Of a stretch of DNA of 42,973 bases, positions 1 through 38,607 are shown one piece after another. Position 1 is the stretch's first letter. Each line of letters starts with the position of its first letter. Source of the DNA: a virus. The notes under the pieces are model-generated. The model did no database searches. It saw only the letters and a list, made by a program, of their open reading frames with translations, and was not told where the DNA came from. Location: IMG/VR virus record IMGVR_UViG_3300032560_000042, positions 1-42,973 of that record, one strand, 5' to 3'. A program made the translations under genes and the position numbers.

Positions 1-704
1 ATGCCAGGACCAGAAATAACCATACCTGGGAGGATTGCAGTGTTAGCAGCAGATAAAGTGATCGTTGTGCTAGAAGATGTAGCATTTTGGGTCACTGTAA
101 CAGCTGAAGCAGGTACAACGCCTACGATACGGAAAGGAGCCGATGTAGTCAAAGGTGTAATCGCTGATGTGCTTGTGGCAGCAGCAGAGATTGCAATACC
201 AGCAGATGAATCGCCAGTAGTTGTCGAACCAGTGTTACCAGCAGCAGCACCAATGTAATAAGCATTAGAACCAACGAAAGCTGGGTTTAGGTATTGAATG
301 GTTGTAGAACCACCAGTACCAGCTGGGTTAGACAAACAAACTGCTTGGAAAACAGCTTGAGGATCATCAACAACATAACCAATAGCATCTGGAGCTGTTG
401 TAGAAGCTTGCCAGAACTGATAACGATTTTTACCGTAGATTGGACCACCAGTTGTTGAATACTCGCAACCAACAAACACGCCAATTGTGCCGTTAACAGC
501 AGAAGAAGCATTGTATGCCAATGTTGAAGATACTAAGTTACCAATGTTTGCACCAGTACCAATTGCTACAACGTCACCGTTGAACAAGCTAGTACTGTAA
601 CCGTTGGTGATAGGGAACATACGGGTAGAACCCGCAAATACACGACCACCAATAAGGTTAACTGGCTTTAGCCCGTAAGGGGCTGCTACTGTAGGATAAG
701 CCAT
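1..704 (-). CDS. Major capsid protein candidate (partial, 3' end outside window)
   Basis: Open on the minus strand from ATG at 704 to the window edge, 234 codons plus two bases. AGGAG lies six bases upstream of the ATG. The product starts MAYPTVAAPYGLKPV and continues with a GGRVFAGSTRMFPI segment, a pattern I associate with abundant structural proteins of uncultured aquatic podoviruses. It is the last visible gene of a terminase-portal-scaffold series, where the major capsid protein is expected. The visible C-terminal part is rich in Thr, Ser and Ala. It ends in a beta-rich segment (TTITLSAANTAILPGMVISG) resembling modules in the tail hub at the right end of the window. The capsid role rests on gene order and overall likeness; no catalytic or diagnostic motif proves it. 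A decoration or other head protein is the alternative. Confidence 0.6.
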   Translation of the reverse strand, partial: MAYPTVAAPYGLKPVNLIGGRVFAGSTRMFPITNGYSTSLFNGDVVAIGTGANIGNLVSSTLAYNASSAVNGTIGVFVGCEYSTTGGPIYGKNRYQFWQASTTAPDAIGYVVDDPQAVFQAVCLSNPAGTGGSTTIQYLNPAFVGSNAYYIGAAAGNTGSTTTGDSSAGIAISAAATSTSAITPLTTSAPFRIVGVVPASAVTVTQNATSSSTTITLSAANTAILPGMVISGPG

Positions 705-721
705 ATAAATCTCCTAATAAG

Positions 722-1174
722 TTAAGAACCTTTACCAAAGGACACTGTAGACTTCCGTTCTTGGAACAGAGGCATACGAGAATCGCTTTGCCGTAAAAAA
801 CTATTGTCTACTGCTTCTGCATTTGCTTGGGTTTGGTTGTTCTCATAATCCATCCTTGCCTTCACAAATTCCTCAGGAATTTTGCATAACAGTAAACCAC
901 CGATTTCGATATTGTCTTTGTATCGACTATCTGGATCGGTCAACATTCCATATTTCGGTTGCTCTTCAGCTCTGACTGCTTCCCAGCCTTCTCTTAGTTT
1001 GGAAGATAAGTTGCGAGGGTCAGCGTTGTTAAGCATCGAAACCCTAACCCAGCGATAAGCATAACCTGCTTGCTTGTCTGGTTCAGGTAACAACTCAGGG
1101 GGTTTCCACGCCATAGGGCGAGCCTCTTGTTGTCTTGTTTCAATTTCACGGGGGGTACGATTGTTATTAGCCAT
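722..1174 (-). CDS. Conserved phage head-region protein, 150 aa
   Basis: Begins MANNNRTPREIETRQQEARP and has a central WVRVSMLNNADPRN block followed by NIEIGGLLLCKIPEEFV. The C-terminus is RKSTVSFGKGS. This composition is familiar to me as a conserved hypothetical protein placed between scaffold and capsid genes in aquatic podoviruses. No enzymatic motif or membrane segment is visible; the chain is charged and probably soluble. Its start overlaps the end of the scaffold-like gene by eight bases, so the two are probably translationally coupled. The capsid candidate starts 17 bases downstream of its stop. A role in head assembly is inferred from position only. Confidence 0.85.
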   Translation of the reverse strand: MANNNRTPREIETRQQEARPMAWKPPELLPEPDKQAGYAYRWVRVSMLNNADPRNLSSKLREGWEAVRAEEQPKYGMLTDPDSRYKDNIEIGGLLLCKIPEEFVKARMDYENNQTQANAEAVDNSFLRQSDSRMPLFQERKSTVSFGKGS

Positions 1175-2111
1175 TTTGGGACTCCGTTTTAACTAGTTCG
1201 TTGTAATATTGCTCTGGCGTAATTTTGAATTTCTTAGCCAGTTCCATTTGACGGGTGTTTAATGTGATCTTTTTTGAAGACGTTGACCTCGTTGCTGGAG
1301 CAACCACCGTGCTTTTACGAGTTGTAGCAGGAGATTTGGTTCCTGCTTCTTCCCCAAATTTCTCTGGGAAACGTCTTCTCATTTCGGTATCTATAGCGTT
1401 CCAGTAATGATCGGAGCCTGTCGGGACTCCCTCACGTTCCAGCCGCTTATGGATTCCCATAGCGAGAAAACTCATGTCATCGTCAGTGCCGTACCATTTG
1501 TTTTTGTCAAGCCACGATTGGGTTTTTGAGTCCAGTCGTGTTGGTTGGCTCTGCTGTTGAGGTATTTGTACATCAACTTCAGAAGATTGTAAAGTATTTT
1601 CGTCATATTGTGGAACATAACGATCCATCTCTTGAGCTTTAAATTTAATTTCAGTTAAACGCTCTTGAGCTTCTACTAAACGCTCTGCATCGCCAGAGTC
1701 ATAAGCCTCTTTGTATGCACGTCTTGCTTGATCAAGATCAGAGGCAATTTTTTCTTTAGCTGTTGATACATACACCTTTTCGCCATCAGAAAGTCGACCT
1801 TTAAGGCGTTTGTTTTCTTCAATAATGGTGTTAGCAACCCGAATAGCTTCTTCGTTTTCACGCTGGATAGCTTCTTTAGCCCTGCGTTCATCGTTAATCA
1901 GCTTTTTCATCTGCAAAAGGCGTTGTTTTGCCTCTTTAGAATAGGCTTCTAAGTCATCATTGTCGATTTCTTCAACGATTTCTTTAGGAAGTGGTGCTGC
2001 ATTAATACGATCTTCTTCTGGGGTATCGTCAACAATCTCTAATTCAACCTCTGGTGGGGTTGCATCATCACTTTCCAAAAAAGAAAAGTCTTGTTTTTCA
2101 AATTCAGCCAT
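1167..2111 (-). CDS. Scaffolding-like coiled-coil protein, 314 aa
   Basis: Residues 1-50 are very acidic. A long charged helix, probably a coiled coil, spans about residues 55-165 and is full of Glu, Lys, Arg and Ala. A Gln-rich linker follows near residues 180-195, and the end is basic, with TLNTRQMELAKKFKITPEQY. A highly charged, helical, capsid-preceding gene is the usual profile of a head scaffolding protein, which guides procapsid assembly and then leaves. There is no serine or aspartyl protease motif. AAGGAG lies upstream of the ATG. The call rests on composition and position, because scaffolds diverge too far for residue-level recognition. Confidence 0.6.
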   Translation of the reverse strand: MAEFEKQDFSFLESDDATPPEVELEIVDDTPEEDRINAAPLPKEIVEEIDNDDLEAYSKEAKQRLLQMKKLINDERRAKEAIQRENEEAIRVANTIIEENKRLKGRLSDGEKVYVSTAKEKIASDLDQARRAYKEAYDSGDAERLVEAQERLTEIKFKAQEMDRYVPQYDENTLQSSEVDVQIPQQQSQPTRLDSKTQSWLDKNKWYGTDDDMSFLAMGIHKRLEREGVPTGSDHYWNAIDTEMRRRFPEKFGEEAGTKSPATTRKSTVVAPATRSTSSKKITLNTRQMELAKKFKITPEQYYNELVKTESQNG

Positions 2112-2122
2112 GTTTTTTCTCC

Positions 2123-2533
2123 TTAAACACGAGTAATTCCACGAGGATCTTCAACTACAGCCTCGACAGAATCGTCATTAATTAATCGGAACTCACGACC
2201 ATGAATCTTTAGGCGTGTGCCAGTGTTTGGTCTGGCAAGAATAAAGTCACCTTCTTGGCACCAAGGACCAGTAGGAAACCTTTTTTCATCTTTGTAGCAA
2301 TCAGGTCCCATTTTGATAACAAAAAAGACGGTGGAAAGCACTTCTTCCATTTGCAGTGTGGCATCCGCTTTGAGGATTCCACCAGCGTGTTCTTTTTCAG
2401 CATCAGGAATACCAACAAGCATACGATAGCCTTGTGGCATGGGTAATTGTCTTGCTTTTTCTTCACCTGTTTGAGGCAAAGTCGTTACGTTACTCACATC
2501 ATCGGGGTTTGAGCCGATTAGTATTTCACTCAT
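2123..2533 (-). CDS. GroES-like co-chaperonin (Cpn10 fold)
   Basis: About 136 aa. After a 30-residue N-terminal extension the chain follows the Cpn10 pattern. MPQGYRMLVGIPDAEKEHAG is the first strand and start of the mobile loop, and GGILKADA matches the family GGI-hydrophobic stretch of the GroEL-binding loop. GDFILARPNTGTRLKIHGRE matches the family GD-V-Y-xx-GTE-xx-x-DG core, and EFRLINDDSVEAVVEDP matches the C-terminal strand. T4 gp31 is a known phage GroES substitute that lets GroEL fold a bulky capsid protein. The gene lies between portal and scaffold, which fits a capsid-folding role. ATG at 2533 is preferred over a TTG at 2536 because GGAG is better spaced. It overlaps the 64-aa gene upstream by eight bases. 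Confidence 0.8.
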   Translation of the reverse strand: MSEILIGSNPDDVSNVTTLPQTGEEKARQLPMPQGYRMLVGIPDAEKEHAGGILKADATLQMEEVLSTVFFVIKMGPDCYKDEKRFPTGPWCQEGDFILARPNTGTRLKIHGREFRLINDDSVEAVVEDPRGITRV

Positions 2534-2720
2534 CAAAATTCTCCAAGTTCTTTTTAAGGTCTGAAATGTACATCCTTACAGACAGAAGACCCGTTATCTG
2601 TCCGCAAGTCTTTTGGTAGTCAGCGTAGTCTTTGGCTACACCAGTACCAAGGGACTCTTCCAAGTCCCTTACTCTCACATCTACCTGTTTGAGGAGATGA
2701 TCTAGTATTTTTTCCTTCAT
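2526..2720 (-). CDS. Small helical protein between portal and co-chaperonin, 64 aa
   Basis: Starts MKEKILDHLLKQVDVRVRDL and is predicted mainly helical, with a CGQITGLLSVRMYI segment and an acidic tail. Its ATG overlaps the portal stop (ATGA), and its own stop overlaps the co-chaperonin start, so it is locked into the head operon by coupling on both sides. It has no recognised domain. Genes of this size directly after the portal occur in many podoviruses and may be minor head or portal-associated factors; that is inference. Confidence 0.8.
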   Translation of the reverse strand: MKEKILDHLLKQVDVRVRDLEESLGTGVAKDYADYQKTCGQITGLLSVRMYISDLKKNLENFDE

Positions 2721-5233
2721 TCAATTTCCTTTTTGGTTTTTTGAGCCTGGGTTTTTGCCATTTCAGCTAAGATTTTGAGCTTCTCTGACTGGCGTTGTTG
2801 ATTCATCTGGGCTTTATTACTTCCTATTTGATGACCTAATTTCATTCCTTCTAATTCTTGTTTAGCAGCAAGGTTGGCTTTATCAGAAGCAGTTTTTGCT
2901 CCCACTTGCATACCAGCAATTTCTTTTTGCGCTGCAATACGCATTTTTTCAATTTCAATTTGATCAGCTTTACCAGCTGCATCCATAGCCAGTTTCTTCT
3001 GTTTAATGTCAATTTCCTGTGCTTTAAGCTGTAATTCTTTCATCTGCATCTGAACAATAGGATCTTGAGCAGCTTGCTGTGCCTGTTGTGCAGCCACCGC
3101 AGTCTGGTTCTGTTGCAATAGATTTTGAGCAGCTGGGACAGCCAGACGAGCAATTTGCATTTCTTGTTCTGGAGTCATATGAACATCTGGATCATCGTCA
3201 TCAGAATACGGAATGTTAATGCCCATTTGCATCTGCATTTGTCGCATATATTCAAGACCAACGTGTTCAGTAATGTGAGCTTGCATCGCTTGAATCATCA
3301 TAGGAGCTTGTGGGTTTTGACCAATAGTTTGTTTGATCTTTGGATCATTCATAGCAGCCATATGAATCTGAATATGGGCTTGATGGTCTTGACCAATGAA
3401 GGCTTTTAATGGTTTGTTCTTTAAGGCGTTGACGTTTTCCGTTACTGGATCTGTAGGCTTCATGTCTTCTGGCAATGGAACCAACTTCTCTAGGTTCTTA
3501 ATGCCGATGACTTCTAACATCTGACGATGTAAGTAAGGAAGGTTGTAAAGCTGGGGAGCTGTCTGGCATAACTGTAGGGCAGCTTGATACTGAACTACCT
3601 TTTGGCTCATGGTTGCTGCGTTTGGATCTGATACGGGAATGATATTGACCATATCGTAGTCAGATTTACGGGCTGTACGATTACCGCTAGTAGGCTGGTA
3701 ACTGTAATCTTCTGGAGCGTAGTCAGCAATGATTCTCTTAAGAAGTTTAAATTCTTGCTTCATGGAGTAATGAATACGAGCTTGAATCGCAGACATGACT
3801 TTAAGTGTGCGTTCTAAAATTGCTAAAGTCGTACCCACTGGAGCTTGGCTGCTCATGTCTGATGCTTTTAAATCGCCAGAAGAAGCAAAACGTCTACCTT
3901 CTTCTACGATCTGGTTGAGCAACGTCATTAATGTTTGGCTTGGCTCTTTATACGGCAATGGCATGATGTTGTCTTTCATCGCACCACTTGGAACATCTAC
4001 GTCACGGAACTCACCTGGAGCTATCGGGGTATCGTCACCTTTGACACGCAACCCACGAGTCTTAAAGCCTCCAGGAAGATTGGACAATGACCCTGCATCA
4101 ACCAGCTGACGAAGAATGGAAGTGCCCGATTTAGCAAAAGCTCCAATAAGATGAATAAGCCCGAAATGATAAAAGCCGAAGCCAGGGATATAGCCATAAT
4201 GTACAAAATGCTGGCGTTTTTGGTGAGTTTTGTCATCTGGATCCCAGTTTCTACGGATTGCTAACACCTGTCCGTTTGATTTTTCAATGGTTACAACATA
4301 AGGAAGAGCAATGCCTGTTGGTTCGCCATGCTTATCTGTGTGCTCAAAACCTTCTAAATCAAGGTGGCAGTGCATTTCAAGGACTTTAAAACGGTCATCA
4401 GTAGATGCCCTAAAGCCTAATTTTTCTGCAATTTTCTTTTCAATCTCATCTAAGACGTTATCTGGCGATCCTAGATTTAAATCACGATAGAACCCTTCAT
4501 ACTGTAGGCGTTTAAGTTCGTTTTCTGTTTTACGCATCACATGGGTAATGCGTTCTGCGGATTCAAGACTAGAAGCACCGTAAGGAACAACCAAATCTTC
4601 AGCAGGAATATACATTGATACTTGACGATCTAGGCTTGGATCTACATAAACCTTTTTAAATCCGTTACCTGAAAGTCCTACACCCCAGAGCATACGCTCA
4701 TGTTCAGGGCGAAACTCTTGCATCACATCGGTAAGCTCATGGTTCATGTCTTCTACAACACGCTCACAAGCATCTTTTTTCTCTGATGTTTCTTTACCAA
4801 CAATTTCGCCCTTGACTGGACCAGCTGCTGGAAAGGTTTCCATGATGGTTTCAGATTGGAATTTAATGACGGCTTCGGCTAAGACTGGATGGTAAACACC
4901 GCAAGCACCTTCCCAAGGTTCTGAACGCTCTTCAATCTTTAAGCCAAGAAGTTCTAAGCCATCAACATAGGTTTGAATCCAGTCACGTCTAGAATCAATG
5001 TCCGATTGGAAATCTTCTAAGAGTTCGCTGGCAATTTGTAGTAAAACCGATTCAGGCAAATATTCAGCAAGGTTTGCATCAAAGTCTTCAATCTCCTCGC
5101 CTTCCATTTGGATTTTTATTCCACCAACTTTTACGTCTACCTCTTCAGGGTCAACAATTTCAATTTCAACATCTGGTCCTTCTAAATCAGGTAAACCTTG
5201 GGGGGCTGCATACATTGCTTTATCGATTGACAT
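2717..5233 (-). CDS. Portal protein (P22-like), 838 aa
   Basis: A large chain with the features of the P22 portal family. An acidic N-terminus is followed by a helical clip and wing region with RRDWIQTYVDGLELLGLKIE and SEPWEGACGVYHPVLAEAVI. The central part includes ETIMETFPAAGPVKGEIVG, GFGFYHFGLIHLIGAFAKSG and GTSILRQLVDAGSLSNLPGG. The last 170 residues are a Gln/Ala/Lys-rich helix, probably the barrel or crown coiled coil. In the virion it forms the dodecameric DNA channel and docks the terminase. AAGGA lies five bases before the ATG. It starts eight bases after the large terminase stop and overlaps the next gene by four bases. At 838 residues it is longer than P22 gp1, mainly through the C-terminal helix. 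Confidence 0.93.
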   Translation of the reverse strand: MSIDKAMYAAPQGLPDLEGPDVEIEIVDPEEVDVKVGGIKIQMEGEEIEDFDANLAEYLPESVLLQIASELLEDFQSDIDSRRDWIQTYVDGLELLGLKIEERSEPWEGACGVYHPVLAEAVIKFQSETIMETFPAAGPVKGEIVGKETSEKKDACERVVEDMNHELTDVMQEFRPEHERMLWGVGLSGNGFKKVYVDPSLDRQVSMYIPAEDLVVPYGASSLESAERITHVMRKTENELKRLQYEGFYRDLNLGSPDNVLDEIEKKIAEKLGFRASTDDRFKVLEMHCHLDLEGFEHTDKHGEPTGIALPYVVTIEKSNGQVLAIRRNWDPDDKTHQKRQHFVHYGYIPGFGFYHFGLIHLIGAFAKSGTSILRQLVDAGSLSNLPGGFKTRGLRVKGDDTPIAPGEFRDVDVPSGAMKDNIMPLPYKEPSQTLMTLLNQIVEEGRRFASSGDLKASDMSSQAPVGTTLAILERTLKVMSAIQARIHYSMKQEFKLLKRIIADYAPEDYSYQPTSGNRTARKSDYDMVNIIPVSDPNAATMSQKVVQYQAALQLCQTAPQLYNLPYLHRQMLEVIGIKNLEKLVPLPEDMKPTDPVTENVNALKNKPLKAFIGQDHQAHIQIHMAAMNDPKIKQTIGQNPQAPMMIQAMQAHITEHVGLEYMRQMQMQMGINIPYSDDDDPDVHMTPEQEMQIARLAVPAAQNLLQQNQTAVAAQQAQQAAQDPIVQMQMKELQLKAQEIDIKQKKLAMDAAGKADQIEIEKMRIAAQKEIAGMQVGAKTASDKANLAAKQELEGMKLGHQIGSNKAQMNQQRQSEKLKILAEMAKTQAQKTKKEIE

Positions 5234-5241
5234 AAGGATCC

Positions 5242-6732
5242 TTAGTAATAACCTTTTTTACGCCTAAATTCTTGTGGCTCATCTGGCTCATCGCTTTGCA
5301 GCGTAATAAAGCCACCTCTTCTAAATCTTAACAGTGCTTGGGTTGTGGAGTCTACTAAGTCATCGTGATCTGAATTGGGAAATGCTGCTAATTCCTCTAC
5401 TACTTCTTCAGCCCAGCGTTTTCTTGGTGCCCAAATTTTACCGCTTGCAAACAAATCAGATACGCTATTAACACGAGATATTTTATCGTTACCCCTAGTC
5501 GGTGTAAACTCTTGAACAGGAATACCCATCCTTCTAAGTTCAAATATAAGTGGAGCACCAGATGCTTTCGCTTCAACAATGAACGAATCTGGTTCCCAGT
5601 CTTTATACATATCATAGGCTCGCTGTTTAAGAGTGGGGAACTCCATTCTCTCTTTAAACGCATCCAATAAAATGATATTAGCATCCGTTTTATCTTCATT
5701 TAGGTAAAAAACTCCCCAAGTCGTACACGCTGAATAGTCAGCCCGTTCTGATTTTGTAAATGCCGTATCCCAAGATTGGATAATGTAATCACAAGGGGGA
5801 GGGGTTTCTTTATCCCAGACCCTCCACCATTCCCGTTTTACAAGAGCACCTTCTTCAGAGGTCGGATCTTGTTGATACTGGGCTTGCCACTTAGAAAGCG
5901 GTAGTTCTATCCTTAGTTTATCAAGTTCTTCGTAAGACCAAAACTCGGGCCAGAGGGGTTTTTCGTTTCTTTTTATCGCTGGAAGGCTGATGATTTCCCA
6001 TTCATCACCGTCTCTGTCCACCATCGCTTGGCAGATTTTTCCCGTCAGATCCCTTTTAGACCAACGGGTCATCACAACTACAATAGATCCTCCAGGCTGC
6101 AAACGCTGGCGAGGACCTGAAGTGTACCACTCGTACACCTTATCAAAAACGCTAGGATCCCCAGCTGCAAGTGCTGCTTCTTGCTCGGAATGAGGGTCAT
6201 CAATAATGAGAAGATCAGCACCTTTACCAGTAACAGTACCGCCAACACCAATAGCAAAATACTCCCCGTTAGCATTAGTACTCCAACGACCAGCAGCCTT
6301 GCTATCCGATCTAAGAGCAACATTAGGGAATACTTTGGCATATGCCTCTCCGTCTACTAAGTTACGCACCTTTCGACCAAAACCAACTGCAAGTTCAGCC
6401 GTGTTAGAACATTGAATGATTTTCTTATTAGGGAATTTTCCTAAGAACCAAGCTGGCAAAAGATAACTGGCAAACTCAGACTTAGTATGACGAGGTGGCA
6501 TATTAATAATAAGGCGTTTAATTTTTCCACTGGCAATCTCCTCAAATTTTGTTGCCATTAATGCGTGATGTTCGCCATGAATAAAATTGGGCCACATGGT
6601 TTCTACAAACGACATAAAGTCAATTTGCCCAGTTTCACGAGTTACTGCATCCTGATAAGCCAACGCCAATGGGCGTAGCTTTGCCTGATCCTCCTCAGGC
6701 AGCTGGTCAATGATGGCTAACAACTCATCCAT
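5242..6732 (-). CDS. Terminase large subunit (packaging ATPase-nuclease), 496 aa
   Basis: The N-terminal ATPase has a Walker A region INMPPRHTKSEFASYLLPAW near residues 76-95 and Walker B DLLIIDDPHSEQEA near residue 175. A coupling-motif candidate VVVMTRWSKRDLTG follows. The C-terminal RNase H-like nuclease has IIQSWDTAFTKSERADYSAC near residue 315, with its first acidic residue in SWDTA, a second acidic site in FIVEAKASG, and a final one in NSDHDDLVDSTTQALL. The enzyme docks on the portal, cuts concatemers and pumps DNA into the head. AAGGAA precedes the ATG. The start overlaps the LexA-like gene by eight bases. All expected acidic residues are present, so it looks intact. Confidence 0.96.
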   Translation of the reverse strand: MDELLAIIDQLPEEDQAKLRPLALAYQDAVTRETGQIDFMSFVETMWPNFIHGEHHALMATKFEEIASGKIKRLIINMPPRHTKSEFASYLLPAWFLGKFPNKKIIQCSNTAELAVGFGRKVRNLVDGEAYAKVFPNVALRSDSKAAGRWSTNANGEYFAIGVGGTVTGKGADLLIIDDPHSEQEAALAAGDPSVFDKVYEWYTSGPRQRLQPGGSIVVVMTRWSKRDLTGKICQAMVDRDGDEWEIISLPAIKRNEKPLWPEFWSYEELDKLRIELPLSKWQAQYQQDPTSEEGALVKREWWRVWDKETPPPCDYIIQSWDTAFTKSERADYSACTTWGVFYLNEDKTDANIILLDAFKERMEFPTLKQRAYDMYKDWEPDSFIVEAKASGAPLIFELRRMGIPVQEFTPTRGNDKISRVNSVSDLFASGKIWAPRKRWAEEVVEELAAFPNSDHDDLVDSTTQALLRFRRGGFITLQSDEPDEPQEFRRKKGYY

Positions 6733-7279: not shown

Positions 7280-8245
7280 CTACCCTTTTTGATTAGAAAA
7301 AGATGACGGGGGGGTTTCTAAAACAGTGTTTTTTTCCTGCCAGTTAGGATTTTGTACCCCCTCCCCCATAGGGATTAACTGGTTAGGGTTAATACTTAGT
7401 ACTTCGCAAGTATTTGATTCTAAAGGATTTGTCACCGTAACAGGTGTTAGGGTGAGATTTGTTGGTGATTGAATGTGTGAAATACTATGCAAATGATCCG
7501 CATCGAGCACGGGCAAAAAAGGGGTGGTGGCACTCGGTGGGGGGTCGGAAATGGGAAAAGAAGAGCCAGTATCCCCAGTTTCAGAGATGGAATCCTCTTG
7601 GGATTGTTCCTGATCATCCTGATCCTGATCATCATGCACCTCACGAGAGACCACATCGACTGGATCATTGATCTCAGCGAGCAGTTGCTCGGCTGTTCGC
7701 TTGGTCGATACCCTTAGACTATTACTGTTCTGTATCGCCAGTTGGACTGCTTCCATCAGCTTGGACTTGAGCGTGGTGCTATCCATCGTATGCACCAGTT
7801 CCCGTCTCTCAGTGAACAGTGCTACCTCAGTCATCTTGCCTACCAGCTCTAACGCCTTGAGTTGCTGAGCGGGGGGCAAGTCATCATTCAGAGCCATACT
7901 GGAGAGTTTATGGATTGCCATAGCCCTCAAACGAGGGGGTAGAAGATATTCCTCCACCTCTTTCTGTGCTTCCAGTGCCGTTATGTATGTAGCCACATTT
8001 GGGGAGCGTGAGAGCTTACTTGCTTCTACTCCAGCAGTCTCTCTCTTGCCCTTAGTGTTATACGCTCTGCGGTAGGCTTCGCTCTTGTTCCCAGTAGCCA
8101 CGACTTGTTCAGCAAATGCCTTTTGTTTCTTGGTTAGCTTGATCCCTTGCTTAGACTGGCTACCGAGAATGATGGTCTCAATCGGCACTGCTTTCATGCC
8201 TTCTGCTATCTCTTTCTTGGTTAGTCTTCTCTTGGTGTTAGGCAT
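7280..8245 (-). CDS. Terminase small subunit, 321-324 aa
   Basis: Residues 35-90 follow the DNA-binding start of the terminase small subunit family (Terminase_2): KLTKKQKAFAEQVVATGNKS then EAYRRAYNTKGKR and a helix rich in Ala, Ser and Leu. A helical oligomerisation region with LRAMAIHKLSSMALNDDLPP follows. After about residue 205 the chain is a long disordered tail, first Asp/Gln/Glu-rich, then Pro/Ser/Thr-rich, which is unusual for the family. It binds phage DNA and recruits the large subunit. ATG at 8245 and TTG at 8254 are both possible; neither has a good ribosome-binding site. It is the first gene of the leftward block, and the stop is TAG. Confidence 0.8.
   Translation of the reverse strand: MPNTKRRLTKKEIAEGMKAVPIETIILGSQSKQGIKLTKKQKAFAEQVVATGNKSEAYRRAYNTKGKRETAGVEASKLSRSPNVATYITALEAQKEVEEYLLPPRLRAMAIHKLSSMALNDDLPPAQQLKALELVGKMTEVALFTERRELVHTMDSTTLKSKLMEAVQLAIQNSNSLRVSTKRTAEQLLAEINDPVDVVSREVHDDQDQDDQEQSQEDSISETGDTGSSFPISDPPPSATTPFLPVLDADHLHSISHIQSPTNLTLTPVTVTNPLESNTCEVLSINPNQLIPMGEGVQNPNWQEKNTVLETPPSSFSNQKG
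7432..7455. repeat. Dyad element copy within small terminase gene
   Basis: Half-sites TCACCGTAACA (7432-7442) and TGTTAGGGTGA (7445-7455) are inverted repeats of each other with one mismatch, separated by GG. The same dyad occurs at 8371-8393 and 32828-32850. This copy lies inside the small terminase reading frame, where it encodes part of a PVTVT stretch, so some of the similarity could come from coding. Confidence 0.45.
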
Positions 8246-8370
8246 AGTATTCAATGGGTATATTTATACCCCCTGAGTATAGGACAGTTCTGTAAAGGAC
8301 ATCAATAGTCTTATCTCCCTTACTCTTATCTCTCTCTACTGGAGTCATCACACTGTTCCGCTTCGCTCTT

Positions 8371-10340: not shown

Positions 10341-10913
10341 ATGGGATGGACTGGGACACAATGCTTTTTCAAAATCAGTCGCAAAGACTTTTTGATCAAA
10401 GAATTTACGCAAGAAAACGATACCCACAAATGGTGGCTAACCAATATTTCAATGCGTGGTAACACCGCATATTGCATTAGTTGGCAAGAGGAGAAAGCCA
10501 CTGGGATCAAACACCATGAGGGCATGGTTATCCTGACGGAGAAACGCAGAGAAGATCCTGATTGGATCTATTACAAGAATATGGGGGAGACTGTATTGCC
10601 CTATTACTTTGACGCTCCTAAGAGCCTTATCACGACTCTAAACGCACTAGGAGAGCCATACAACGATAACGCTAAACAATGGCGGGAGCGATGCTTGGAA
10701 AATGCCAGTGTCAAGAAGCCAAAGTTGAAGTTTGGGGATGTTGTGAAGTTTGCCCATCCGATGTCATTCTCATTCTCGACTGGGAGGGTTGAAGAGGACA
10801 CCTTTACCTATGTTGAATACGGGACAAAGAGAAATGTATTTAAAACCCGTCAAGGGCATCTTTGCCGTATATCAAAATTAACCAATAGGGAATTTACAGT
10901 TCTATCAAACTGA
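10341..10913 (+). CDS. DUF6927-like phage protein, 190 aa
   Basis: Opens with MGWTGTQCFF, resembling the MGWT start typical of the DUF6927 family as I recall it, and continues with WWLTNISMRGNTAYCISWQE. The second half (KFGDVVKFAHPMSFSFSTGR onwards) looks like a small beta domain. No catalytic residues are evident. It is the largest protein of the early block. An inverted-repeat element follows its stop. The family assignment is from memory of the N-terminus and is not certain. Confidence 0.7.
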   Translation: MGWTGTQCFFKISRKDFLIKEFTQENDTHKWWLTNISMRGNTAYCISWQEEKATGIKHHEGMVILTEKRREDPDWIYYKNMGETVLPYYFDAPKSLITTLNALGEPYNDNAKQWRERCLENASVKKPKLKFGDVVKFAHPMSFSFSTGRVEEDTFTYVEYGTKRNVFKTRQGHLCRISKLTNREFTVLSN

Positions 10914-23740: not shown

Positions 23741-24082
23741 ATGAATACAGTAATTTTGCCCTGGCCTCCTAAAGAATTAAGCCCAAATTCCACATTACAC
23801 TGGGCTAAGAAGGCTAAATTTAAGAAAAGTTATCGTCATACTTGCTGGGCGTTGACCTTAGAAGCCAAGCTCACAGCTGACGGATCAGGGAAAATCCCTA
23901 TCCTGATTACCTTTTACCCCCCAGATAAACGCCATCGGGATGCAGATAACATGGTTGCCAGCATTAAAGCTGGATTGGATGGCGTAGCAGATGCCCTCAA
24001 GATAAACGATAGGCAGTTTATGCCTACGTTTACCTTTTCAGATGAGGTTAAGGGGATGGTTAAAGTCCAGCTGACAGCCTGA
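23741..24082 (+). CDS. RusA-type Holliday-junction resolvase, 113 aa
   Basis: MNTVILPWPPKELSPNSTLH then ITFYPPDKRHRDADNMVASI, KAGLDGVADALKINDRQF and a final strand. RDADNMVASIKAGLDGVADAL-INDRQ carries the family's catalytic aspartates (D-x-DN, LDG-x-D, and the late ND). Length is normal for RusA. It resolves branched recombination intermediates before packaging. It is alone on the plus strand in this part and overlaps the convergent giant gene by 23 bases. No clear ribosome-binding site precedes the ATG. Confidence 0.92.
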   Translation: MNTVILPWPPKELSPNSTLHWAKKAKFKKSYRHTCWALTLEAKLTADGSGKIPILITFYPPDKRHRDADNMVASIKAGLDGVADALKINDRQFMPTFTFSDEVKGMVKVQLTA

Positions 24083-27000
24083 ACTTAATCGTCTGTTCCA
24101 AAATTTCTTCTTTTTTGTTCTTATAGAAGTTAATCTGTTTGCGTTTTTCGTCTGGAGACATCTGAGATGCTGGTAGATCCTCAATCCTACGAATCTGGGC
24201 GTTGATATCAATTAGGGCTTTACCAGCTTGACCAGTAAATCCAGAGGCTTGTATTTCCCCTTTATGGTCGTTAAACCATTGTTTAGCCTCTTCTTTATGA
24301 CCTTTCCCGACTAGATCCGTGAATGTTTTCATAGCAATGTCAGAACGGGTCTTCAGGTCGTAGAAAAGGTCTTCCCTGCCTCGTGGTACTTCAGGAGCTA
24401 CAAACGAGCCATAGAGGGGATTATTGCGTTCCTCTGGGCTTGCTTTGTGACCAGAGAATAGGTTAGATCCCCACATCGCAGCAGCAGCCACAGAACCGCC
24501 TAAACCACGCATGACGTGATCAGCTTGGATTGGGCTTAACATCCGATGCTCTTGGGATCCTAGACCGCTGGCATAGCTAATCCACTTACCTAATTCAGAG
24601 GTGCTGCCGTTGTATTGACGGAAGGCAGCCAAGTCTTTCATGGATTGTGGAGTGACGTTACCGCCAGTGTAGAAGTCATGGTTTAGGGCTATCTCAGCAA
24701 ATGGCTTGATGGCAGTAGGCACTGGACCCGATCCAAGTGGGCCAAGTAATGCATCCACTGCACCTTCCTTGAGAGCTTTACGCAATCTAGCATTGTCGAT
24801 GGCATCTTTAGTACCCTCTTTAGTGATCTTGTTATAGAGCATCTCAGGGATAGACTTAAAGAAATAGCTGGCAGAAGTATGCATTGGGATGAGCAAGGTA
24901 TGGTCATAGCCAATTGTCTTCATCATAGAACGAGGGATAACAAAGTTACGCATCTTTGTCTGATCATCCATCTTCTTGTATTCGTCATCATCACCAATCG
25001 CAAAGGCATATAACAAGCAAGTAGAAGCCAATAGACCGCTGGCAATAGCCAATCTGGTCATTGCTTGCTGACGATCTAATCCTCTTAGACCACCGCTAAT
25101 ACTGGTGACTTTTTGACCTGTGAGCCTTTCTACACCACCAGCAATAGGCTCTGCCAATGCTTGGGTCAGCACATCAATCTGCTGGGCATAAGCGTTCATA
25201 AACGCAATAGTCCTGTTGAGGAATTGAGCTGTTCTACCCATGCCACGCTTGTCAAAGTCAATGACGTTAGTCGCTGCAAGAATAGCTTTACGCTGGTCTC
25301 CACCGCTTGGGAAACCGCCAGTCTCTTTCATTACACGCACATAAACGGCTCTACGCTGTGCAAAGTCTGAGGCATCAGCAATCTGGTCAAGGATGCTGGT
25401 CACTCTGGCAAAGGCTGATTTATTCAATAAACCAATTTCTTGCTTGTATTGATGCTCTGCTGTTCTAGCACCAGAGTGATAACCACCAATACCGTAAGAC
25501 TTGAGCAACTCGACCACTTCATCTTTCTGGGTTAAACCTTTAACAAATGAACCAAACACACCGCCAAACAAGGCTACTGGGTTCTTCACGCCAGTCACGA
25601 TGGCAGCTGTTGGGGCATCCATGAAAAGCTGTTTAATCTGGAATACGCCAGAGAAAGTAATCGATCTACGCAAGCCGTTAGCAAAATAAGCCATGATCTC
25701 GTTCATTGGGATCTGGATGTTCTCAATACCAATCACGGACTGGGCAATCAATGGATCAGCAATTTGGATGTTGACCTTTCTGCCACTAATCAAAATCTTA
25801 ACAATGCCACGAGCAGGATCTTCTTTAGGGAAGACTTTGAGCTTGCCGTTCTCATTACGAGTGCCATACTCCTGGGCAATACGGTTGGCTGCATAGTTCT
25901 TAATGGCGTTACGAGTAGTCACCATGACGTTGTGAAGCATATTGTCCACGATGTCATCGATGTCTAAATCAACTTTACCTTCTTTGAAACGATGCTCTCT
26001 GGCTACGTTCTTGACACCTTTAGAACTGTAGATTGGGGTATGAACGTCTGTCTGTTCATCCATAATCCGCTGCCAAGGCACATAGTCTTCGATGTCACGC
26101 AAAGTATCAGCACGTTGTTTGCTGATCATGCGAGCTTGTTCCATCATGTCAATCATGTTCTTGTTAACAGCGTTCCAGTTATCCATCATTTTTCTAAGTT
26201 CTGGATACTGTTTGTCTAGCTTGCTAAAGTCATCGATAGCTTCATCGGACATATTGACTTTTTGCAAGGCAATACCGATGTTTTTAAAATCTTGTTCAGC
26301 ATCAGCAATCTTGTCCAAAAGCAATAGTTGACGGTCTGGTGAAGTACTTGGATCCATCTGCTCTGTTCTTAGCATCTCCAATTCGCCTTCACGCTTGAGG
26401 TATTCATCCACGATAGAACGTGAACGCTTGGCTTCAAAGTAGGCTTGGATGACGTTGGCAGCACGTTGAACGCCAATTTCTTTCTCTAGCTGGTGCTTCA
26501 AGGTCAGGATATTAGCCATTGAGAACTTGTCTTGAACGGCATGGAACATTTGATTGGTGTTATCAAAGACTAATTTACCCAGCATAATGACTTGAGTACC
26601 AATACGAGTAGCTTTGAGAGCTTGGTTCATAGCCACAGAAGCCACAGCACGACCTTCGCTGTCTTCTAACATACGACCATAACGGGCTGCATCGGCAGCT
26701 GTCAGACCAGCTGTGAAGTCTGTTGTCTTAATACGAGTAGCCAGCACTGCACGATCTAAGTTTCCAACCATGTTGTTGACAGCAAGGCGTGGTGACTCAA
26801 CCATCTTCGCACCAATATTCTTAGCTTCTTGAGCACCGCCCAAGAACTTATCCATCACACCGTTAGAGGTATGGATAGGAGCATCATTGCGATTGTGCTT
26901 GGCTAATAGCTCGTCAGTCTTCTCAACGCTGTAGAGGAACTTAGTCTTATATGGTCCTGAACTAATCAGGTCTACCAACATGGTCTTATGAGTTCTTGGT

Positions 27001-30000
27001 GTCTCGCCTTTGATTAAATCATTGAAGGCTTTGTAGACTGAATGGGTATTGTTAAAACCAAACAGCTTCTTCATTGCCTCAAATACTTGACGGATGGCGT
27101 TGACATAACGACCCCAAGGAGTTCCCATACGAGTGCCAAATAGCTTCTCAGCGTTGACAGCCCAAAACTCTGAAGGATTGATGTATTGGTACATATCCTG
27201 TGAAGGCAACAACTCCATCGCCTTTTCAAAGTTTTTCTCGCTTGGATCGTTGACGTAATCCATTACCGCCATGAAATACTTCTGAGAAACCTCATCAGTG
27301 TTCTTCTTGATGGCTTTCTCAAGGGCTGCTCTCCAAGATTCGATGATGGCTTGCTGGGTCTGTGGATCCATCATCTGCTCAAGGGTATGCATCAATTCAT
27401 GTCGAATAGTGCCAGGATTAACAGCTCCTGATTCCTTGTATAGCCTGACGATACGCTCTAGGTTATTGAATACGCCAGCAGCTGTGTAGGCTGCGTTCTG
27501 TGGGGCTTGCTTAACCGATAAGCGTAGACCAGTCAAAATAGCTGGGGATTGTCTATAGATGTATTGGATAACGTCTAGGACATCCTTGCTGATATTGCCC
27601 TTGTTGTATTCGTTAAGGGCACGAGCCATGAACGCTTCTGGCGTAATCTTCTTCTCAGCAGTCATCTTCTTGTCGGCTGCCAACTCTTTAGCCAGCTGAT
27701 CAAGATGGGTTAACTCACGCTGAGTATTGATTGTGGTCTCGCCTTTGATGACTTCACGCTTAATCTTGGTGATGCCACGTCTTACACGAGCCAACTCATC
27801 TGTTTTAGCTTTGTGAATCTGGGCAATTTGCTCTCTTAGATTCTTAGGAATCACGCTTGGATTTAGCTTTGGAATATGAGCGTAATTGGTTAAAGTAAAT
27901 CCATCTTCATGGGCTTTACGGTCATACTCAATAGCTTTAGCAGGACTTAAAATACCGTTTTCTGATTCAGCACCATTGTAATAATCAATAGCAACTGGTA
28001 AGTATTTAAAGCCTAATTCTTTTGCTGCCATGATTCGATGGTTTCCTTCATTTACATAAGGAGTGCCATCTTGGTAAATATTGATATATGGGGTGTAATG
28101 GGTTTTACCATCTTTCTCAAATGGCAAATGGTTTTTCTCGCCCATGTAATCCATTAAGGATTTCAAATCTGCAACTCTTACATTGCGTTGTTCATCATTT
28201 ATACCTTGCAGTTTTGCAAGAACATCAACTGGAACAAGCATTTTGCGAACTGGTGAGTTTGTTACGCCCTCTTTTGTTCTGAAATAAGCTGTTGCAGAAC
28301 CAAATCTATATGGAACGCCAGATGATTTTCTGCCATCTTCCCTAGATAATTGACGTTTGTGCTCTAACCAATTTCCACCTGGGTTATCTGTAATCATATA
28401 AACAGGAGGAACTTTTGGCTGATACATCACGCTTGGAGTAACAGTTGCTTTAGGTGGTGCAAACATCTCTCTAGCTTTATCTCTAGGACTAGAAGCAATC
28501 AGAGTGTCACCACGAGTATTGATGATGAAATCTATAGCTTTGGCTGCTTGATCTTCGTTGGCTCTGGCATACATAGTGTTACCAGACTTATAGAAGTCAC
28601 CAGTAATATCAGTCAAACCTCGGTCTAGGAAGTATGTACCGCCTTCTTTCTTAGAACTTGGGACATTGAATTGATACTGATTTCCGTAGCTAGACTTGGT
28701 AATCCGCAATACATTATCGGCAGAAGTAATCACACCGTTTACTTCATTCATAAACCGCATAGCATCGGCAGCAGAACGTAAACGAATAGGTGCTTCTCTT
28801 TGTTCTTTCTCAAAATCATAATTGCGTGGCATTAAAATGCCTTGACCAGTTTCGTTAGTGCCCTTTTTGGTATAGGACATAATCTGACCAATGTTTTTAA
28901 CGGCAGCGTAACCAGCCAAGATATTGCCAGTAACCATGTAGCGTTTTTCACGTCTAACAGTGGTATTACGGTCAAACATATCCTTTAAGTGGATATTTTC
29001 AGCTTGTTGTGTTTCTGGATTAAAGTAATTGACAATACTTTCTTCTTTTAAAGTATAGGTACTTCCAATCTGAGAAAAATTTAAATTAATAGATTTAGCT
29101 TCGCCATTTGCCAAAGCTATGGTCATTTTCCAATCAGAACCAGCTGCTGGGTTAGCAGTTTTCTTTTTGTTTTCCACATTAGTAACAACACCATATACAA
29201 ACATATTTTGTTTGTTTGTAAGTGAAACAGGTGTGCCAATACGGTAGTTGTTTAAAACTGTTTGAATACGGTTATAGTTGGAATCCAAATCATCTTTAAA
29301 CTTTTGTATTCTTACTGGATCAGCTTCTGCTTCTTTTAATTTGGTTAGTTGCTCTGTACCAAATGTTCTAGCTCTTTCACGCAATTCTTCTCTTTGTGCG
29401 CTGGCTTTAGCAGGTGGAGACATTCCATCTAAATGTTTAAGAACAAGCTCTTCTACCTCATCTTTAGAATAAGGTTTAACTGTTCTTTTAACTTCAACTT
29501 GTTCCATGTAAGCTGGTTGAGCAAACAAGGATGGATCACCTTTATCTTCAGTAATTGGTTTAGAAGATAGAGTTTCAGCATCAAGGTCAACGGCTTTCGC
29601 TTCGAGCTTGTTAGTTCCCATGCTGTTTTCACGCTCTAACAAATCGTTGTAGCGTTCAATTAAATCTTTGTAGATTTCCTCTTGTTGCTTTAATGGCAAC
29701 ACAGGGATATAACCAGTTAGCTTGCGTATATCTTCCTCGGTAGCTTCTGCTGGATCATCCAACAAATTAATGTTTGCATCTTTACCGCCAATATCAGCAT
29801 AAACTTCAGGGTTATCTTTTAAATACTCTTGAGCTACTTGACCACCGTAGTCATTCATAAAGTCCACAACACCTTCAGCTGTAACGGCAGACTTACGAGA
29901 AGCTGTCGTATTAGCGTTCAGAGAAGCCATCTTTTTAAGTAATACCGCAGCTGGTCTCATTTCAGCTGGAACATCTGCCATTAGTTGAGAATATGCTGGA

Positions 30001-33000
30001 GGCTGCACTTGACCAGTTCTTAAAACACGACCCAATGTTTGCATATGCACGTCAATATTAGGATCAGCTTGTGCAATGATCATATGACGTTTTTTCTGAT
30101 CTTTAAAATTCTCAGATGCGTGTAAAGAAATACCAGTTGAACCAGATTGATTAATAATTAAGGCATCAATTGAACCATCATTGAAACCATCGATTGCCCT
30201 ACTTTTATCTTCAGTATCATTGTCTCTAGATGCCAAAATAGGAATACCATCTTGATAGTTAATAATCACTGTCCTACCAGTAATTTCATCTGATTTATAG
30301 CCAGCTTGACGTAATGCATTATGCATATAGTCAATTGGAGACATTGGAGCAGCACCAAAACCAGCATTATTAATAAACTCTTTAATTTTGTTATAAGCTG
30401 CTGTAGCTACTGGACCAAGATCATCATCAGTTAAACGATAAGGAGTACCTTCTTTTTGTCCTGGTTTCTTAATCTTAATAGTTCTTTGTTTTTCAAGATA
30501 GTTCAAAAACATATCTTTAAATGAAAGATTAATTGGATCACCAAATTTTATATCATTCATCTTTGCATATTCTTGCAAAAACGAACCCATAGTATTGGAC
30601 ACAGTAATGACGGGTTTTTCGCCAGCTTTCAATCTTTCTATAGCAAACCTAACTGCATCTTCTGTTTTCAAAGATAAAAGCATCTGACTAATTAAACTAT
30701 GCATCCTTGAACCAAAAGTTGCACTTTGAACAGTGGTTCTTTCACTTTTTGCTCTACCAACCGCACCAGATTGATCAAGACTTTTCTGCATCTGTTTGGT
30801 AATCATTTGAATGGCTCTTGAAAATGCAAGAATATCTCGCATTGAAGTAGCCATTTTTTCAGCTGTTTCTTTGTTTACTACTGTTGGAACGGTATCGTAA
30901 GCTACGCCAGCAAAGGTACGCTCTCTGCGTATATATTGACCAACATTCGTTAACATATTAGCAACAACTTGTTGCATTGGAATACCACCATTTTTAATGG
31001 CATCACCTAATTCGCTAATATTATCTACAGCCAAACTCATGTCTGTACTTGAATACAAGTCCATCACATCTGGGCGTTTAGCGTAAGTTGCAGAGGAGAA
31101 GAATGTTCCGTAAGCGTTATCAACTAAATTACGAACATACTTGGCACGATTTAATCCTTCACTTTCTGCCGTTTTTTCACCAGCGCCACCAGCACTATGG
31201 CTTTCATCAAGAATTAAATAATTACCTTGTGCAAAATGATCAATGAATCTTCTTCTTTCAGTGTCTTCTTTTTTAACAGTGTTTAACTGATCATATGTTG
31301 TAAAGATTACTTTATAGTCACCAATACTATCTTTAGAATGCATATCTTTAAGAATAGAATCTAATTTTATAGCAGCAGATTTTAAAATTAGTTTTTTCTC
31401 TTGAAGTTTTCCATTTACTTTTCTTTTTAATGTATATGGAATTTTTTCATCATTGTTAGTAATTAAAATTTTTGGTTTATCAGTATCTAAACCAAGTTCT
31501 TTGGTCATACCAATATCGTCTAAATCATTGACCATTGCTGCATACAAGGTAGGCTTTTGAGTAACAAAAATAGGAATTTTGTCATTAACAATAGCAAACT
31601 TAATCATCGCAGCAACAACACGACCCTTACCAATACCAGTTTGGTCTCCAATGATGAAGCCTTTGCCAGCTTCAGCATTGCGGATAGCCAATGCCAACGC
31701 ATCTATTTGTTCTGCTGAAAGGTTTTCTTTTAAAGTTTCTGGGTCCATTTCGATGGCATTAGCAACATATTCATCTATATTGCCCATCTCATCTTCTACA
31801 CGAGTAAGAGACTTATCAATAGATTGCGACATTGCTTTAGGAACCAATGTTCCAACAGAAGCTGCTTGCGAATGAGGTTCGTAAGCCACTTGATGACCTG
31901 TTTCTACCTCTTCTCCTCTACGGTCTTTTAATCCAGACTCGACACGCTCACCTGAGACAACGCTAGGTCCACCCAATTCGACAGGCTCGTTTCTTCTATT
32001 GCTTTCTGTGCCAACGGGTTGCTTTCCTTCACCAGTGCTGGGAACGGCATTTTTGTTATTGATACGTTCAGGTTTGTTAATAGATTCAGGTTGTCCTCTA
32101 CCAGCACCTGCCCCAGTTGGTTCGGAAAGTACACGTTTGCTAGGCTCATTCTCAGACACGCCTCGTTTGCCGACTTCATTGGGTCTGGCTCCTTCATTAC
32201 TAGGTCTACCACCCTCTGTGACAGGGCGTTCACCCAATCGTTCTGGCTGACCTGCCCCTTCTCCACGTTCACTGATGTTAGTTCTATCGGGGCTGACATT
32301 CCCTCTGGATACCATGCTGTCATTTAATTTCTCCTTGAGTTGCTCGTATGAGGTAATTTGCTGTGGGAGTTCCGCAGCTGGTAAAGCTCTTTGTGACTGA
32401 CCTTTTCCATCAATAACAATCACATCCACAGGGTAACTAGCACCCTGTTTGGTATACATATTCCCTGCTACCGAGAAGTGATCTATTACGTTGTAATCTT
32501 TGTAGAGGTTGTAATAAAACTCTCGTTTTGCTTTTTGACGATATCCTTCACGCCTTGCATCTTCGCCTTCAGCACGAACACCGCCTAGGATCAATACGGC
32601 TCTGCCATTAACTGGCATATCATTTAAAGCTTTGTATGAAATAGCATGATCTATTTCTCTAGTGATTTTTCCATAAACATGAAATTCTTCGCCAATAGAA
32701 CCAAAAGGAGGGTTGGCAATGACTACATCGACAGGATTTATGGATTTAAGAACTGCATTTTCATTAGATACTTTTGCACCTGGAAGCACCTTTTTGAGCA
32801 TTTCATAACGGCTAGTATTGAGTTCGTTCACCGTAACATTGTTAGGGTTAGAAGCTATCAACAACATTCCGTTACCGCCAGTAGGCTCGTAAACCGTTGT
32901 TTTATCAGTTATTCCTGCTAGTTGCGATGCAACATAAGCCAATGGAGCTGGGGTGGAATAAGCCTGTTCTCTAACACTGGTAGAACTTCTGACAGCCAAA

Positions 33001-35879: not shown

Positions 35880-35914
35880 CAAATTGTGTCCTATTGGGTA
35901 CTGCTAGTTTACTA

Positions 35915-38160: not shown

Positions 38161-38607
38161 TTACAACATTTTCGTAAATACTTTATCAGTCATCTTATAT
38201 CCCAAATACTCAAACAGTCTCGTATTATCTAAATGCACTTTTGTATGCATTACGATACGTTTCACACCTCTGTCTTTCAATACCTGTTCTGCATATTGAA
38301 ATAACTTAATGCCTACTCTTCCTTTGCGAAACTCTTTAGTCACAAAGTACAAATCTTCAATTGCCGTCATACAAGACTTATAGTGCAAATGTGGAGTGAC
38401 TATAAAAATAATGTAGCCAATCAATTGTTCATCATTCCTACAAGTAATGCACCGCAACATTCCTGCTTCTGCCATTCTTTTATAAGCTGGGTAATCAGGC
38501 TCATAAGGAAATTCTTTTGTTACACATAGCTCTTCGTAATGCTCTGGGAAAAGCTTTTCAAATTCATCAACAAACTTAAAACCGTCAACGTCTTCGTAGA
38601 TAATCAT
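38161..38607 (-). CDS. GNAT-family acetyltransferase, 148 aa
   Basis: The C-terminal half carries the GNAT core: CMTAIEDLYFVTKEFRKGRV with the beta-strand 4 and pyrophosphate loop (RKGRVGIKL), then LFQYAEQVLKDRGVKRIVMH and LDNTRLFEYLGYKMTDKVFT. The loop reads R-K-G-R-V-G in place of the usual Q-x-x-G-x-G. Acetyltransferases recur in podovirus virion gene clusters with an unknown target. Its start overlaps the stop of the 640-aa gene by four bases, and the 745-aa gene follows after eight bases. Confidence 0.85.
   Translation of the reverse strand: MIIYEDVDGFKFVDEFEKLFPEHYEELCVTKEFPYEPDYPAYKRMAEAGMLRCITCRNDEQLIGYIIFIVTPHLHYKSCMTAIEDLYFVTKEFRKGRVGIKLFQYAEQVLKDRGVKRIVMHTKVHLDNTRLFEYLGYKMTDKVFTKML

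Follow-up and report, generated by a model that had tools for sequence, protein, structure and literature searches.

A predicted GroES-type co-chaperonin encoded in the head module of a large aquatic phage group

Known phage co-chaperonins and the gene in this record

The T4 protein gp31 is described in a passage of PMC6318259 as replacing GroES, binding GroEL competitively and being essential to fold gp23, the 56-kDa capsid protein that it serves, with a loop of 22 residues. GroES genes are recorded in further phages as well: a section of PMC9599517 counts co-chaperonin GroES among the 13 core genes of HTVC023P-type podophages, a part of PMC10149686 marks it in Roseobacter phages, and a passage of PMC6487183 mentions GroES in viral genomic islands.

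The window analysed here is a whole stretch of viral DNA of 42,973 nucleotides, the IMG/VR record IMGVR_UViG_3300032560_000042. Its GroES-like protein of 136 aa is encoded on the minus strand (2533..2123 including the stop codon, ATG start), and the ORF listing has it one codon longer, from a TTG start at 2536. A plus-strand reading of 2123-2533 was ruled out by the in-frame stops in its translation, and the two strings from which the initial annotation had recognized a co-chaperonin, GGILKADA and GDFILARPNTGTRLKIHG, are both present in the minus-strand translation. The gene is under purifying selection, its dN/dS being 0.06-0.17 in all nine comparisons with close relatives (rough values, with dS up to 2.1); together with relatives encoded by at least 599 IMG/VR stretches (599 of the 600 pattern-matching stretches listed), this puts the reality of the ORF beyond chance.

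Among the described phages, Planktothrix phage Pag-Yong1, HTVC027P and DSL-LC04 encode GroES proteins homologous to the window protein with 50%, 40% and 35% identity, respectively, and in all three, as in the window, relatives of a 314-aa and a 150-aa gene come after GroES. Compared with the window protein, those of the HTVC and DSL types have longer N-terminal tails, and their third loop residue is Leu, Phe, Ile or Met instead of Lys. Cellular GroES (Cpn10, PF00166) has the same predicted fold, with 19-26% identity between the window protein and solved cellular Cpn10s, but the window protein differs in the sequence of the roof region and has about four extra residues after the loop, an N-terminal tail some 29 residues long and a Lys at position 55. 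T4 gp31 also shares the fold with the window model (1g31, Z 7.4; 2cgt, Z 7.8), yet bacterial Cpn10s match better, the structural alignment gave 13% identity to gp31, and gp31 is absent from the 19 PDB matches found at E ≤ 1 with the profile described below.

Family assignment, predicted fold and mobile loop

The Cpn10 identity proposed in the initial annotation was borne out by a PHROG match, a family profile and a structural model. The window protein matched phrog_3188 'co-chaperonin GroES' at E 1.1e-10, and M. tuberculosis Cpn10 was the top match in a single-sequence PDB search (E 0.0089). Counted against the co-chaperonin reading is the Pfam model Cpn10 (PF00166), for which the window protein alone scored 18.3 bits, under the 21.1 cut-off; NCBIfam GroES models likewise gave at most 23 bits versus cut-offs of 96-136 (best model, 23 versus 136). 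Relatives were taken with four IMG/VR queries as best matches, i.e. 80 loci in the closest set, 80 HTVC, 80 DSL and 62 Planktothrix, in sets that can overlap in contigs (L077 and L291 do); a plus-strand GroES match was present in 306 of 307 loci, the one left out (L085) being the window's own. Alignment A1 holds 66 sequences, namely the window protein plus 65 of the 71 representatives of these relatives at 82% clustering, with four annotated phages (L081-L084), L115 and L125 lying outside it and some start positions trimmed. The A1 profile matched 19 PDB sequences at E ≤ 1, 18 of them co-chaperonins (best E 1.9e-13), and 54 of the 66 A1 members matched PF00166 at E ≤ 0.01 (best 4e-17). A GroES-like identity is suggested positively but modestly by the window protein alone and becomes firm once its relatives are added. 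In a tree with few columns, long branches and an unsettled bootstrap, the 34 cellular sequences were separated from a single branch (98/99) comprising all aligned phage proteins but one (65 of 66), and the exception, the distant L307, fell on the cellular side.

The AlphaFold2 model of the window protein had a mean pLDDT of 80.3 and a pTM of 0.69, with pLDDT ranging over 41-50 in residues 1-20 and 88-95 in residues 71-120. Foldseek returned co-chaperonin chains in all of rows 1-35 (TMt up to 0.78), the 7ekq chains being counted as such by their name in the profile-versus-PDB search. Rows 1-16 of VIA-align were co-chaperonins too (Z 9.9-7.2), headed by the Cpn10 8wuc_a (Z 9.9, rmsd 2.9, 92 residues), and oxidoreductase-type domains began at row 17 with Z ≤ 6.2. 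An oxidoreductase identity was dropped despite the shared GroES-like barrel, because of the lower Z and an ORF that is far too short. The window protein is thus predicted to adopt the Cpn10 beta-barrel fold; of the two features on which the initial annotation had staked this assignment, the barrel is present in the model and the mobile loop is placed at about residues 44-56.

In cellular GroES, GG in the mobile loop is followed by a hydrophobic tripeptide, IVL in E. coli, that contacts GroEL. The predicted counterpart in the window protein (DAEKEHAGGILKA; 2366..2404, minus strand), located by alignment columns and HMMER alignments to GroES, has GG-I-L where expected and then Lys55 as the third tripeptide residue. 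All 76 distinct close relatives share this Lys, whereas the same residue is Leu, Phe, Ile or Met in 73 of 73 distinct HTVC-type proteins and Leu or Ile in 66 of 66 DSL-type ones; the Planktothrix-type set has Lys or Arg in 33 of 41 proteins and Leu, Val or Ile in eight. The 34 cellular GroES have Ile (33) or Leu (1) in a sample that leans to canonical sequences, as it comprises 30 loci drawn from the top-scoring matches in 60 genomes of one phylum plus the four best of 13 further loci, the other nine (L321-L329), at least some of them phage-type or short matches, having been excluded before the count. The loop of L331 was read as GGIII from its printed sequence, where the motif search alone misread Thr. 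Position 52 is Gly throughout A1 and in 75 of 76 proteins of the larger close set, which also almost always has hydrophobic residues at 53-54, and sister phage proteins in the same genomic place carry a canonical loop, e.g. EKTKGGIVL.

The counterpart of the GroES roof spans about residues 76-96 (2246..2308, minus strand), and the invariant or nearly invariant A1 columns there make up a phage signature, G...Y.D...FP.G.WC..GD. The segment is of similar length to the GroES roof and confidently predicted, and DSSP on the model assigned no strand of three or more residues within 76-96. The fixed Lys of the window clade is one modest new point; together with the roof signature, it hints that GroEL is fitted in a way particular to this clade, or that a contact has been lost. 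That the loop of this clade was re-tuned, with Lys for the third hydrophobic residue and an aromatic/Cys roof signature of its own, so as to bind a particular host GroEL differently or to hold a head client via the roof, we regard as unlikely. Being fixed in the clade, the Lys would offer a single-residue handle on how phage co-chaperonins match host GroEL.

Head-module neighbourhood and the capsid gene

On the minus strand, the genes run in the order of terminase small subunit (7280..8254; phrog_51, E 1.7e-15; Terminase_2), two small ORFs, a 496-aa terminase large subunit, TerL (5242..6732; phrog_38, E 2.2e-111; Terminase_6C), an 838-aa portal protein (2717..5233; phrog_1216 portal, E 3.9e-27), a 64-aa ORF taken from the ORF listing (2526..2720), GroES, a 314-aa protein (1167..2111), a 150-aa head-module protein assigned by synteny and phrog_36003 (722..1174; E 4.2e-31) and a protein truncated by the contig end, of which the first 234 aa are visible (3..704). 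The gene had been described as lying between portal and scaffold. Portal and the 314-aa ORF indeed flank it, but the 64-aa ORF, for which PHROG and Pfam gave no family at a convincing E-value, intervenes on the portal side, and the label 'scaffold' is guesswork based on position and a charged sequence, the only convincing match of the 314-aa protein being phrog_28737 of unknown function (E 1.4e-35).

The place of GroES in the head module is steady. All counts refer to loci with room, i.e. with enough flanking DNA on that side by set thresholds. In the closest set, the portal lay upstream in all 76 such loci, TerL (counted in this set only) in 47 of 47 and a relative of the 64-aa ORF in 66 of 77; downstream came a relative of the 314-aa gene in 76 of 76, of the 150-aa gene in 65 of 65 and of the gene beyond it in all 45. 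The 314-aa relative likewise followed GroES in 73 of 75 HTVC, 78 of 79 DSL and 58 of 59 Planktothrix loci, and the 150-aa relative in 65 of 65, 68 of 68 and 55 of 56, respectively. The portal was upstream in 69 of 73 DSL and 57 of 60 Planktothrix loci and in just 16 of 67 HTVC-type loci (3 kb flanks), since other genes intervene in HTVC027P. Relatives of the 64-aa ORF were upstream in none of 78 HTVC, none of 77 DSL and 33 of 61 Planktothrix loci, and those of the contig-end protein were found in 2 of 52, 6 of 51 and 41 of 45, respectively. Thus, the co-chaperonin gene is confirmed as a steady head-module part in a large aquatic phage group.

No major capsid gene was found in the 42,973-base contig. 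The protein at 3-704 was ruled out as the major capsid protein because its matches, in unnamed proteins at 9847-10338 of L081, 9806-10255 of L083 and 9770-10303 of L084, immediately precede the annotated capsid genes, which start at 10462, 10363 and 10321, respectively; L082 had no match. In Pag-Yong1, HTVC027P, DSL-LC04 and CRP-902, the same block lies downstream of the annotated GroES gene, and a capsid gene of 300-302 codons comes next; in Caulobacter phage RW genes of similar sizes, likened by size alone, come after the annotated GroES. The 300-302-aa capsid proteins of these four annotated relatives are well under the 56 kDa of gp23, so the enlarged-cage reason for gp31 does not apply here. 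Independence from the host GroES supply, or a fit to the host GroEL, would be a likelier reason for the gene than a larger cage. No Cpn60 was found in the window record, which starts inside a gene and may be incomplete; the GroEL partner should therefore be the host's, unless it is encoded outside the contig.

Proposed role, distribution and other genes of the record

The gene very probably encodes a phage GroES-type co-chaperonin, likely a ring, that caps host GroEL and helps to fold one or more phage head proteins. The protein would be made together with the head proteins and assemble as a ring, which would cap host GroEL via the mobile loop and displace host GroES, and the capped GroEL would support the folding of at least one phage head protein. 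Ring assembly, GroEL binding and the identity of the client are inferred steps, and by likeness to T4 gp31 and gp23 the capsid protein would be the first client candidate. A dedicated capsid-folding role, as the initial annotation had suggested, is plausible from synteny. Besides the low single-sequence scores, points against the preferred reading are the non-hydrophobic Lys55, the small capsid proteins of the four relatives and the scarcity of a nearby portal gene in HTVC-type loci.

A Cpn10-fold protein that no longer partners GroEL could have been re-used in the virion as a structural or assembly component, say at the portal or within the head. The gene's constant position next to the 314-aa gene and mostly close to the portal would fit such a role, as would the third-position Lys of the window's set and a conserved roof signature unlike that of the sampled cellular GroES. 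The loop is nevertheless canonical in sister phage proteins encoded at this site, and the invariant Gly52 in A1 and the nearly always hydrophobic residues 53-54 of the window's set also argue against a lost partnership; such a virion part is very unlikely. The protein could instead act as a takeover factor that competes with host GroES and redirects GroEL from host clients, with no particular head protein as its client. Any competing co-chaperonin would presumably redirect GroEL in this way, and the binding of gp31 to GroEL is competitive according to the passage of PMC6318259; the steady linkage to head genes favours a head client, and we consider a takeover factor the least probable of these readings. 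The steady presence of a co-chaperonin gene in the head module suggests that head assembly in these aquatic phages depends on a phage-made lid for GroEL.

The view that such a gene is less common in podoviruses does not hold, given its place in the core genome of HTVC023P-type phages in the section of PMC9599517 and its wide occurrence in IMG/VR. In INPHARED, nine of 50,697 records matched the window protein and all nine annotate GroES there, and the DSL-LC04 protein as query gave 25 matches, some of them annotated as hypothetical or left unannotated. The GroES-like head-module gene is of a known kind, real but ordinary. Host assignment from cellular contigs was dropped, as the nine MAG loci concerned (L308-L316) carry labels of several unrelated phyla (Geobacteraceae, Chloroflexi, Bacteroidetes, Actinomycetota, Euryarchaeota/Poseidonia, Cellvibrionales and Gammaproteobacteria), two of them archaeal (Euryarchaeota and Poseidonia); these loci are probably phage contigs mis-binned by chance.

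Elsewhere in the record, a 3940-aa ORF (24060-35882, minus strand) that takes up more than a quarter of its length encodes a giant polyvalent protein with Strawberry-notch-type helicase domains (AAA_34, Helicase_C_4), LPD38 and a DNA-methyltransferase match (phrog_3820, E 2.5e-8). A likely acetyltransferase (38161-38607, minus strand; phrog_1249, E 2.9e-12) is flanked by a 642-aa ORF with no PHROG match and a 745-aa ORF that matches a DNA-ejection protein (phrog_4287, E 1.2e-6).
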